Shown: positions 24,714 to 37,625 of the stretch, one piece after another
How positions within the stretch are numbered: position 1 is the first letter of the stretch
How the letters are laid out: every line of letters starts with the position of its first letter
Made by a program: the position numbers and the translations under genes
Source: Microcaldota archaeon
GTDB taxonomy: Archaea > Micrarchaeota > Micrarchaeia > Anstonellales > Anstonellaceae
Direction of reading: 5' to 3'
DNA length: 38,050 nucleotides
Assembly (NCBI GenBank): GCA_026413765.1
Contig: JAOAKI010000008.1
Location: 1-38,050 of the forward strand
Notes under the pieces: generated by a model
The model's database searches: none
The model's input: the letters and a program-made list of their open reading frames with translations, nothing else
Told to the model about the DNA's origin: nothing

Positions 24714-24821
24714 CCCGCCATAGCTCAACCTGGTAGAGCGCCTGGCTGTAGAAACCAGCGGCGGCCAGCAATTGGGCTGGCAGTCATCAGGATGTTGTGT
24801 GTTCAAATCACACTGGCGGGA
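24714..24821 (+). tRNA. tRNA-Tyr (GUA) with intron
   Basis: The acceptor stem CCCGCCA/TGGCGGG is perfect and gives the C1-G72 pair typical of archaeal tRNA-Tyr, with discriminator A. The D arm is GCTC/GAGC, the T arm GTGTG-TTCAAAT-CACAC. The anticodon stem CCTGG/TCAGG closes once a 34-base intron (24752-24785) at the canonical 37/38 position is removed, leaving loop CTGTAGA with anticodon GTA. The mature length is 74 bases. CCA is not encoded. Confidence 0.93.
24752..24785 (+). other. tRNA-Tyr intron at position 37/38
   Basis: A 34-base intron containing a GCCAGC/GCTGGC hairpin and an alternative CCAGC/GCTGG helix. The bulge-helix-bulge can be drawn only in relaxed form (a GCTG/CAGT central helix with uneven bulges), so the exact ends may be off by one or two bases. 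Confidence 0.75.
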
Positions 24822-24827
24822 TAGTGC

Positions 24828-24918
24828 GCCTCGATGGTGTAGTGGTCAGCATTCGAGATTGTCAATCTCGCGACCCGGGTTCGAAACCTCTCTGGAGGCG
24901 AATTTCCCGGTCGAGGCG
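24828..24918 (+). tRNA. tRNA-Asp (GUC) with T-loop intron
   Basis: Acceptor GCCTCGA/TCGAGGC with G73, as usual for tRNA-Asp. The anticodon stem CGAGA/TCTCG has loop TTGTCAA and anticodon GTC. The T stem CCGGG/CCCGG is separated by 26 bases instead of 7; removing a 19-base intron (24886-24904) restores the loop TTCGAAT. The D arm closes with GTGT/GCAT, including two wobble pairs. The mature length is 72 bases and CCA is not encoded. Two more flanking bases can extend the acceptor pairing in the precursor. Confidence 0.92.
24886..24904 (+). other. Non-canonical tRNA-Asp intron at position 59/60
   Basis: The precursor folds as CCGGG, TTCG, AAA bulge, CCTC, loop TCTG, GAGG, CGAA, TTT bulge, CCCGG. 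This is a strict bulge-helix-bulge: two 3-base bulges around a 4-bp helix. Cutting after the second base of each bulge yields exactly the standard T-loop. Confidence 0.85.
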
Positions 24919-28573: not shown

Positions 28574-29932
28574 TTATGTTATTTTGGCAAAGAAATAATC
28601 GGAAAGGAAGCTGCAATATTTTGGCTGTACGATATTTGTGCCCTCGTATATCTTCGCCCCTTTCAGCCGATCTTTCATATGGGCTGGCACCCCTCTGCCA
28701 GCCTTGCATTCCTCAGCCAGCGCAGAAAGTGCATCAACTGTCTTTCTTCTTTCTATTGCCACTACCCTGTCATGCTCCAGATGGATGTTGAGGGCAGAGG
28801 AGTGCTTCTTGATGAAAGCCTCAGTGTCTTTTGCAAAATAGATGGATGGGCCGACCAATTTCTGCACTGAAGGGAGGCGGCGGCTTTCAAGCTCGATGAA
28901 TATTGCGCATTCAGCCCCATCGCTCCAGTGGTAATAGCCAAAAACCCTAAATCCGCGCTCACCAAGCCGCTGCGCCAAAGCCTGAGTCGTCTTTTTCAGC
29001 TGAGGCCAAAGGACATCCGGGACAACGTGCGGGGCAGGAAAGCTTGCAAGAAGGCAGCAGCTTCCCCTTGCCCGAATCTCCTTTTTGATTTGCAGCGGCG
29101 AGAAGGACTTTCGCTGGGGGAAGAAAAAGCGCACAGAAGGGCTCTGGAGGAATTTGCGCGCGCTGAAAATGAAGCGCGACAGAGAAGTCTGCGCAACGAC
29201 TGCTGCAACGTTTCTTTTTGGGTCGATAGGGTCGATGACAACTAAGGGAGATTGGAAAAACTTGCGCGGGCTTTCAGTGTAATATTGAGCAATATCGATC
29301 GCAGGCTCTCTCCATTCTGACGCTGCCTCCAAAAGCAAGACAAACGAGCCATAATGGGAAATCAAAAGCTCGCATAGGTACCCAGAAAATCCCTCCACCC
29401 TCAGCTCAGCGCCATAAATATCCAAGGCGGCCAAGAATGCTTTCAGCAGCCGAACATCGTCTTTTTGCTGGGCAGAAAGGGTTGAATTGATGTATTTTGT
29501 GTGCAAAATCGAGCGGTCAACCGAGGAGCCTTTCTGGTCAATTTTGGTTATGTTGTACGCAGGCACAACGTCTGCCTTGTATTTTCCGATTTTGACCTGA
29601 AGATAAGGATGCTCCGCATAGCGCGCCTCAACTTTTAATCCAGAAAATGCCTTGCGCGCATAGCTGAGGCCGAGCAATGCAATCTCATGATGGGAATAGT
29701 GCCTTGGAAAAAGAAGGAAAATGTCAAATTCGTTCTTCCCTTTCAAGTCGGTGTCTTTTGCAAGCGAGCCGGCAAGCTCTAATTTCACAGAGGATGGCAC
29801 GACTTTCGCAAGCATGCCAATAAGCTTATTTGCAGCCGCAAGCTTTGCAGCTCTTTCTTTTTGCGTTGGCTTGATCCTCTTCAAAACTTCGGAAAGCACT
29901 TTTTTTGTTTCATTTGGGTTTTTGCAGCGCAT
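28574..29932 (-). CDS. cca: CCA-adding enzyme (tRNA nucleotidyltransferase, archaeal class I)
   Basis: Adds CCA to tRNA 3' ends without a template. The 452-residue product has the class I signature LAGSLAKDTDLKGKNEFDIF with Glu68 and Asp70, and a third carboxylate, Asp121, in GKYKADVVPAYNI. This triplet matches that known for the Archaeoglobus enzyme. Central and tail domains carry DDVRLLKAFLAALDIYGAEL, GFSGYLCELLISHYGSF and PLVVIDPIDPKRNVAAVV. Both tRNAs in this window lack encoded CCA, so the enzyme is essential here. A GAGGCGAAACTG site precedes the ATG, 11 bases after the transaldolase stop, so it is part of the sugar-phosphate operon. Confidence 0.96.
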   Translation of the reverse strand: MRCKNPNETKKVLSEVLKRIKPTQKERAAKLAAANKLIGMLAKVVPSSVKLELAGSLAKDTDLKGKNEFDIFLLFPRHYSHHEIALLGLSYARKAFSGLKVEARYAEHPYLQVKIGKYKADVVPAYNITKIDQKGSSVDRSILHTKYINSTLSAQQKDDVRLLKAFLAALDIYGAELRVEGFSGYLCELLISHYGSFVLLLEAASEWREPAIDIAQYYTESPRKFFQSPLVVIDPIDPKRNVAAVVAQTSLSRFIFSARKFLQSPSVRFFFPQRKSFSPLQIKKEIRARGSCCLLASFPAPHVVPDVLWPQLKKTTQALAQRLGERGFRVFGYYHWSDGAECAIFIELESRRLPSVQKLVGPSIYFAKDTEAFIKKHSSALNIHLEHDRVVAIERRKTVDALSALAEECKAGRGVPAHMKDRLKGAKIYEGTNIVQPKYCSFLSDYFFAKIT

Positions 29933-35813: not shown

Positions 35814-37517
35814 TCAGCACGAGTAGATGAAAGTGAGGTGGCTTCTGGATTTTTGGTCCAGCCTGCAATAGCCATATCGCTCAAATTGGACGATTGCTCC
35901 TTGCGGAAGCTCGATGCAAGAAGGCTCGCAAAAGCCGCTTTGCTCCTGGAGGCTGTCTTGTCTGAAATTGCCCTCATCGTCAAAGAGAGCGCCGGGCTTC
36001 TGCACAATGCAACTTACTGCCCCCTCGAATGGAACCCATTGGATTTTCTTTTCGACTTCGCCAGTCTCTTCCTTGAAGGTTGCAATTAGCTTGTTGCTTT
36101 CTTTTTGCACCAGCTGCACATTGTAGAGGTCTTTCAAGCGGAACACCTCGCCTGGCTGGAGAGCTTTTGCATCCTCGCCAGAGATGTAGAATCGGCTGCC
36201 GACAATCAATGAGCGCGAGCCCAAGTCAATGTTGGGGTGGTTTTTGATAGCAACTCCGCGAGGACTGACATTTTCAATTTCAAGAAGGACTGGGTCTGGC
36301 ACAAAGAATCGCCTTTGCGCCTTGCGGTCAAGGAATTTCCTATTGAGCCAAAACAGCTTCTCATAACCTGGCTGGCTTTCAACTTTTGAAAGACCAAACT
36401 CCAAGACAAATTCGCGTATTGCTTCTGGCACTATGCCTCTCCTTCTCAATCCCGCCAACGTAGGAAGGCGAGGGTCAGAAAAGCCATCGACTTTGCCTTC
36501 CTGCACGAGCGGCAAAATAAGCCTCTTTGACACTGGCGCATTCTTTATCTCAAGCCGCGCAAACTCAATGAGTTGCGGCTTGCGCAAGCTGAGGGCGTCG
36601 AGGATCGCAAAATAAAGCTCATTTCTCAGCTCATATTCTTTTGTTCTCATGGCATGTGTGACGCCTTCAAGCGAATCCAAGATGGAGACAGAAAAATCAT
36701 AGGAAGGCCAGCAGCAATATTTGTCCTTTTGGCGGTAGTGCAGCTTCTTGACAATCCTAAACAGTGTGGGATCGCGCATCACAGTATTCTCAGATGACAT
36801 GTCGCCTGCAAAGCGCATGATCGCTTGCCCTTCATCAAAGAAGCCTTCTTTCATCTTCTCAAAAAGCTGCCGGTTTTCTTCTATCGTCCTTGACCTGCAT
36901 CCGCACGCAGTCTTTGATTCTCTGGACTTTTTGATTGCTTCTTGGCTGCAAGTGCAGATATAGGCTGCTTTTGCGGCAAGCAGCCTGTCTGCGTAATCGT
37001 AAAGGGCTGGCATATAGTCTGAAGTGTAGGATTCTTTGTCCCATTTTATCCCAAGCCAAGCAAGCCCTTCTTTTATTGCATCCACGAATTCTTGGCTTTC
37101 CTTTTCCGGATTGGTGTCATCAAAGCGCAAGATCATCTTTCCAGAATATTTCCTTGCGCATTCGAAATCCAGCCAAGCCGCCTTTGCATGGCCAATGTGA
37201 GGATAGCCTGATGGCTCAGGGGGAAAGCGGGTGACGACTTGGCCTTCGATGGCAAAAGGCAGGGCAAGCTCTTTCTTTTTCTCTTCCTCTTTTGCTTTGA
37301 ACTCGAACTTCGAAAGCTCTTGCTGGATTTGCTGCAAAGAAAGCATGTTCACTTTTTCAGCTTCTTGCGCAACAAGCCGAGCAACCTCTTTCATGTCGGA
37401 TTTTGCGGCTGGGTACTCTGCAACGACTTTGCCTATTATCTTGGAGGGCATTGCCTTTCCGTGGTCGGCGGCATTCTTTAGAGCATGCTTTCGAATTATC
37501 TCTTGCAAACTTGCCAT
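35814..37517 (-). CDS. gltX: Glutamyl-tRNA synthetase, archaeal type
   Basis: Charges tRNA-Glu. The 567-residue product has the archaeal/eukaryotic GluRS layout: helical N-terminal region (about 1-85), Rossmann core with FPPEPSGYPHIGHAKAAW (HIGH motif), RFDDTNPEKE, a Cys-rich site CTCSQ ... ACGCR likely binding zinc, PSYDFSVSILDSLEGVTHAMRTKEYE, and a KMSKS-type loop PVSKRLILPLV. The C-terminal half is the all-beta anticodon-binding domain of the archaeal class, not the helical bacterial one. The start is ATG 37517. Gln-tRNA would be made by a separate amidotransferase, not seen here. Confidence 0.95.
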   Translation of the reverse strand: MASLQEIIRKHALKNAADHGKAMPSKIIGKVVAEYPAAKSDMKEVARLVAQEAEKVNMLSLQQIQQELSKFEFKAKEEEKKKELALPFAIEGQVVTRFPPEPSGYPHIGHAKAAWLDFECARKYSGKMILRFDDTNPEKESQEFVDAIKEGLAWLGIKWDKESYTSDYMPALYDYADRLLAAKAAYICTCSQEAIKKSRESKTACGCRSRTIEENRQLFEKMKEGFFDEGQAIMRFAGDMSSENTVMRDPTLFRIVKKLHYRQKDKYCCWPSYDFSVSILDSLEGVTHAMRTKEYELRNELYFAILDALSLRKPQLIEFARLEIKNAPVSKRLILPLVQEGKVDGFSDPRLPTLAGLRRRGIVPEAIREFVLEFGLSKVESQPGYEKLFWLNRKFLDRKAQRRFFVPDPVLLEIENVSPRGVAIKNHPNIDLGSRSLIVGSRFYISGEDAKALQPGEVFRLKDLYNVQLVQKESNKLIATFKEETGEVEKKIQWVPFEGAVSCIVQKPGALFDDEGNFRQDSLQEQSGFCEPSCIELPQGAIVQFERYGYCRLDQKSRSHLTFIYSC

Positions 37518-37625
37518 ATTGCAATTAAGCAAAAAAGGGTTAAGAGGCTAACGCAAGCGCTATCTCTCTTGGCGGCTTTCCCAGTCAGCGTTCAGACAGC
37601 CAAAATTCAAGTGGGAGATATAGCT

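Follow-up and report, generated by a model that had tools for sequence, protein, structure and literature searches.

Position 59/60 is a listed non-canonical position of archaeal tRNA introns, with Crenarchaeota and Nanoarchaeota as rich sources (PMC4090602). Introns at this position, the strict bulge-helix-bulge (BHB) motif, and the wide range of substrates that epsilon2 splicing endonucleases accept were all known already (PMC4090602, PMC4033280, PMC6379350, PMC12397907). For the epsilon2 enzyme of ARMAN-2, a report describes Y236, H251, and K282 as catalytic and adds that Y160 and K161 of the so-called ARMAN-specific loop matter for cleavage (PMC12397907).

Here, we describe a tRNA gene with a predicted intron at this position in a Micrarchaeota genome, found in a window of 38,050 nucleotides (i.e., the whole stretch of DNA that was analyzed). 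Judging from the sequence, we consider it almost certain that positions 24828-24918 are a functional, and probably the only, tRNA-Asp(GUC) gene of this archaeon with a BHB intron in its T-loop that is removed by splicing.

Anatomy of the tRNA-Asp gene and its T-loop intron

24714-24821, plus strand: tRNA-Tyr(GUA) gene with an anticodon-loop intron of ca. 34 nt, six bases upstream of tRNA-Asp
24828-24918, plus strand: tRNA-Asp(GUC) gene (from sequence, fold, and a tRNA-Asp model)
24828-24885, plus strand: exon 1 with acceptor 5' strand, D arm, anticodon arm, T stem 5' strand, and T-loop positions 54-59
24861-24863, plus strand: anticodon GTC
24875-24879, plus strand: outer BHB helix, i.e., T stem 5' strand CCGGG, pairing with CCCGG at 24906-24910 (from the fold)
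24880-24883, plus strand: central helix 5' strand TTCG (exon, positions 54-57), pairing with CGAA at 24899-24902
24884-24886, plus strand: 5' bulge AA^A with the predicted 5' splice site 24885/24886
24886-24904, plus strand: 19-nt intron ACCTCTCTGGAGGCGAATT at 59/60
24887-24898, plus strand: inner hairpin CCTC-TCTG-GAGG of the intron (helix CCTC/GAGG, loop TCTG; from the fold)
24899-24902, plus strand: central helix 3' strand CGAA (intron)
24903-24905, plus strand: 3' bulge TT^T with the predicted 3' splice site 24904/24905
24905-24918, plus strand: exon 2 with T60, T stem 3' strand, acceptor 3' strand, and discriminator G73

The two halves of the T stem are separated by 26 nt (TTCGAAACCTCTCTGGAGGCGAATTT, i.e., TTCG-AAA-CCTC-TCTG-GAGG-CGAA-TTT), and the elements that the sequence-only reading had proposed for this stretch (TTCG/CGAA between AAA and TTT bulges, closed by CCTC/GAGG) are borne out base for base. 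They form a strict hBHBh' motif of two 3-nt bulges and a 4-bp central helix, all Watson-Crick. This is the minimum-energy fold of the T arm at -14.6 kcal/mol, and it makes up 67% of the arm's ensemble (probability 0.67). A point against the reading is that the cloverleaf with the BHB reaches -32.5 kcal/mol compared to a global minimum of -35.4 kcal/mol, with the difference located in the D and anticodon arms. Cutting both bulges 3' of their second base would leave TTCGAAT as the T-loop, which places the intron at 59/60 with a predicted exon junction of ...GGGTTCGAA + TCCCGG..., and an alignment with uninterrupted tRNA-Asp genes from within the genus likewise places the insertion at 59/60. The 19-base intron and the standard T-loop originally proposed hold. 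After splicing in silico, the gene yields a complete tRNA that folds as tRNA-Asp in ARAGORN.

Contrary to the expectation that the gene would be missed without an intron model, common tools still call the gene but misplace its 3' end, with ARAGORN reporting a tRNA-Asp at 24827-24901 and the Rfam tRNA model a match at 24828-24900 (33.8 bits). A tRNA-Asp model made from 16 intron-free sequences (the window's own and those of 15 relatives) spans 24828-24918 across the intron with 85.6 bits (E 2e-17), a score that is owed in part to construction because the spliced window sequence is one of the training rows. The shared call of an end at 24900/24901 would fit an intronless tRNA-Asp that ends near 24900 and has an odd T arm. 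However, this reading would come with several non-standard pairs, scores far below the spliced form with the Asp model, and drops the T stem and 3' end kept by relatives, so that we give it practically no weight.

Another reading would be a pseudogene broken by a small insertion, with the real tRNA-Asp encoded elsewhere or absent from the assembly. The insertion does break the T-loop and the assembly comes in 17 contigs, but the acceptor, D, anticodon, and T arms are all intact and the genome has several further isoacceptors with an interruption at this very position. In addition, a strict BHB is a rare outcome of chance: among random 19-mers at the Asp site, both four-pair helices arise at a frequency of ca. 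1e-5 to 3e-5 with Watson-Crick pairs only and of ca. 5e-4 to 6e-4 if G-U pairs are allowed, while the same minimum-energy fold appeared in 2 of 20,000 random inserts. The search for a second complete tRNA-Asp gene that the sequence-only reading had called for found none among the matches in the host genome (840,152 bases, rated 100% complete with 1% contamination), an absence that is not absolute in a 17-contig assembly; of the genome's own tRNA loci, the one that the Asp model scores second is tRNA-His, at 61.5 bits. We therefore regard a pseudogene as very improbable.

Splicing enzymes and the neighboring tRNA-Tyr gene

Besides the functional, spliced tRNA-Asp gene that we favor, the genome encodes a tRNA-intron endonuclease of 397 aa, which matches the epsilon2 enzyme of ARMAN-2 over its full length (4FZ2; E 1e-130). 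Its residues Y238, H253, and K284 correspond to the catalytic Y236, H251, and K282 of ARMAN-2, and its loop residues Y162 and K163 to Y160 and K161 of the ARMAN-specific loop. The type of splicing endonuclease, which had been proposed as a check, is thus ARMAN-type epsilon2. The enzyme is 78% identical to those of MAGs named Micrarchaeota, which together with the 4FZ2 match supports the earlier guess of a DPANN host. An RtcB ligase is encoded as well (PF01139, 589.5 bits).

The genome additionally encodes an EndA-like protein of 190 aa (C10:19244-19813) in which the catalytic Tyr is kept while His and Lys are replaced. Every other genome of the genus has a counterpart with ca. 50-58% identity, and there are weaker matches in the order, part of which are the epsilon2 enzyme itself. 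This small protein may serve the epsilon2 endonuclease as a structural partner. The same window also carries genes for a CCA-adding tRNA nucleotidyltransferase (28574-29932) and a Glu/Gln-type tRNA synthetase (35814-37532).

A relative (G014) also has the pair of tRNA-Tyr and tRNA-Asp, and in a genome of the same genus (G007) tRNA-Asp follows a Tyr-like 3' end. The two genes are probably co-transcribed. A scan for bacterial-type promoters and terminators yielded nothing useful, its models being bacterial and the host archaeal. We propose that a transcript, probably joint with tRNA-Tyr, would fold the T arm into the BHB and thereby displace the normal T-loop, with the TTCG of the T-loop pairing with CGAA of the intron so that the two 3-nt bulges become exposed. 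In each bulge, the epsilon2 endonuclease would cleave ahead of the third base and thereby set the 19-mer free, after which ligation of the exons by RtcB would restore the T-loop TTCGAAT. We infer transcription, cleavage, and ligation of tRNA-Asp in this scheme, the latter two from the known enzymes.

T-loop introns in this genome and across Micrarchaeota, and a 70-nt repeat

At least seven tRNA genes of this genome have strict or near-strict BHB introns at 59/60 (isoacceptor names of interrupted tRNAs were given by hand). Three of these introns are short, i.e., those of tRNA-Asp (19 nt), tRNA-Arg(UCG) (16 nt), and tRNA-Leu(UAA) (16 nt). The others are long:

C7:11694-11990: tRNA-Gly(UCC) locus with an intron of 225 nt
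C7:32116-32363: tRNA-Gly(GCC) locus with an intron of 175 nt
C7:33416-33715: tRNA-Gly(CCC) locus with an intron of 204 nt
C3:95-405: tRNA-Arg locus (CCG by hand) with an intron of 214 nt

The central helix is present in the long introns (with three of four pairs in tRNA-Gly(CCC)) and in tRNA-Leu(UAA), and the inner helix adjoining the 5' bulge was seen in some but not all of them. T-loop inserts also occur in tRNA-Leu(UAG), tRNA-Ser(GGA), and tRNA-Lys(UUU), which stand outside the count of seven with splice sites that are not fixed. Among the interrupted genes, tRNA-Gly(UCC) and tRNA-Gly(GCC) score under the family cut-off, and tRNA-Gly(CCC) is unreported by default tools.

With 175-225 nt, the four long introns exceed the range of 11-129 nt given for archaeal tRNA introns (PMC4090602). 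Each of them is built on a 70-nt repeat (GGGGGCACTAAACTGACACAAGCTTCCCCCTGAGGGCTCACCCCCGAACGAAAAACAAATGTTTGGGGGT), present once or twice in tandem, which belongs to a family of ca. 25 pieces in this genome. A tentative interpretation, which we consider possible but rather doubtful, is that the T-loop of Micrarchaeota tRNAs is a favored landing site of BHB introns and that in this genome the 70-nt repeat family spreads into T-loop introns (three tRNA-Gly and one tRNA-Arg). The introns of 175-225 nt would then show a mobile repeat in the course of creating introns, and tRNA-Asp, with its 19 nt, could preserve an older and minimal state.

Members of the repeat family also lie immediately downstream of tRNA-Val genes and of tRNA-Ala(GGC), as well as elsewhere. 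Sites outside the long introns include:

C7:51061-51365, repeat site
C7:55860-55987, repeat site
C16:12627-12751, repeat site
C12:19580-19817, repeat site
C3:50112-50285, repeat site
C1:10535-10597, repeat site

The tandem arrays look more decayed with distance from the tRNA. Among relatives, G007 (L211) has a repeat copy inside an intron in the anticodon loop of tRNA-Arg(UCU), while G002 (L214) and G012 (L212) have one behind tRNA-Val. A copy also lies at the end of contig C1 together with CTGTCTCTTATACACATCT (C1:137575-137593), which resembles a transposase sequencing adapter, and contig C3 begins with a duplicate of the Arg tRNA found at this contig end. Introns in the D arm were observed in three tRNA-Val genes and tRNA-Glu(CUC) (C7:51369-51435, C7:55789-55857, C16:12755-12820, and C12:19976-20052).

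A pattern for short 59/60 introns in any tRNA (GGGTTCRAA-N(5-35)-YGAAWWTCCC) matched in 174 of 301 Micrarchaeota genomes, i.e., more than half, while the reversed pattern used as control gave 0. We compared exon base 57 with its intron partner in 96 matches, which were copied by hand and chosen irrespective of the intron base but with G57 cases from further down the list deliberately taken in, and counted 71 A-T, 16 G-C, 3 G-T, and 6 A-C combinations. A57-T or G57-C is thus present in 87 of the 96 (Fisher p 9e-11, uncorrected for relatedness), and this covariation supports the central helix beyond one fold. When the intron was removed in silico from 30 fetched loci, ARAGORN called a tRNA across the junction in 26, compared to none of the 30 in unspliced form.

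The sequence-only reading had considered a 59/60 intron unusual for a DPANN genome, which does not hold since T-loop introns are widespread in Micrarchaeota and 59/60 is among the listed non-canonical positions (PMC4090602). The gene in the window adds a case to known 59/60 BHB introns, and what appears new is how frequent T-loop introns are among Micrarchaeota, together with the long introns bearing repeats. We found no description of either in the literature, though most subscription papers lay outside this search and novelty is not proven. For its BHB models, tRNAscan-SE 2.0 relies on training data from Crenarchaeota/Euryarchaeota and Thaumarchaeota (PMC8450103); given this training, tRNA sets of DPANN archaea may look incomplete though they are complete. 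As T-loop introns are apparently common in Micrarchaeota and such genes are missed or mis-delimited by default tools, these results should be of use for annotation and for studies of how introns evolve.

tRNA-Asp introns of relatives and comparison with known systems

The proposed survey of relatives for the same intron gave a divided answer. Among the ten genomes of the genus that were searched for tRNA-Asp (own included), Asp T-loop introns are present in G007 (41 nt) and G002 (44 nt, along with an intron at 37/38), while six have a tRNA-Asp uninterrupted at 59/60, with one copy lacking its final base at a contig end; in G009, no clear match to tRNA-Asp was obtained. The Asp site thus differs among members of one genus, which implies intron gain or loss at the genus level. 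In the rest of the order, five genomes have Asp T-loop introns of 21-77 nt and four have Asp introns at 37/38, and nine genomes of one family (f7) carry an intron in the D-loop of tRNA-Asp, not in the T-loop. A first pattern search of the phylum for Asp alone, which misses longer introns and those accompanied by an additional 37/38 intron, found four true cases, all in the window's own order; five further matches were intronless Asp genes followed by T-arm-like or integrase sequence.

Aligned by eye, the 19-nt intron and the longer Asp T-loop introns of relatives gave no convincing alignment. The Asp T-loop introns of G007 (L125) and G034 (L130), which belong to different families, have a 20-nt stretch in common with one base differing, suggesting conservation or transfer of the intron. 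A spread of this block to other tRNAs was considered and dismissed, as its only other matches (with two mismatches) had no tRNA around them. Presence and absence within one genus, together with the repeat-bearing introns, make intron gain and loss directly testable.

As an addition to splicing of a functional tRNA-Asp, the intron might persist by selection, e.g., by shielding the T arm from integrases that attach there. Intron protection against integrases is discussed in a review (PMC4090602), and in other families of the class the 3' end of tRNA-Asp overlaps or adjoins the start of tyrosine recombinase genes, but no such integrase lies beside the inspected Asp genes of the window's own order and we consider this contribution unlikely. 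At four of those loci in other families (L171, L172, L173, and L175), the start of a tyrosine recombinase gene (PF00589) lies within tRNA-Asp or immediately after it and a second T-arm-like GTTCGAATCCCGA follows just beyond the gene, so that tRNA-Asp looks like an integration site there.

The tRNA-Asp intron resembles the described archaeal 59/60 BHB introns in position, strict hBHBh' motif, and a length within 11-129 nt, though its host belongs to the Micrarchaeota and 19 nt are too short for a sequence argument on common descent with Thermoproteales introns. It shares its junction with the circularly permuted tRNAs of Thermofilum that are joined at 59/60 (PMC3978253), whereas the exon order is normal here and the insertion is a simple intron. 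Closest on the side of the enzyme is the epsilon2 system of ARMAN-2 (Micrarchaeum), with a three-unit endonuclease and the same catalytic and loop residues in both, to which the genome of the window adds a small EndA-like protein lacking the catalytic His and Lys.
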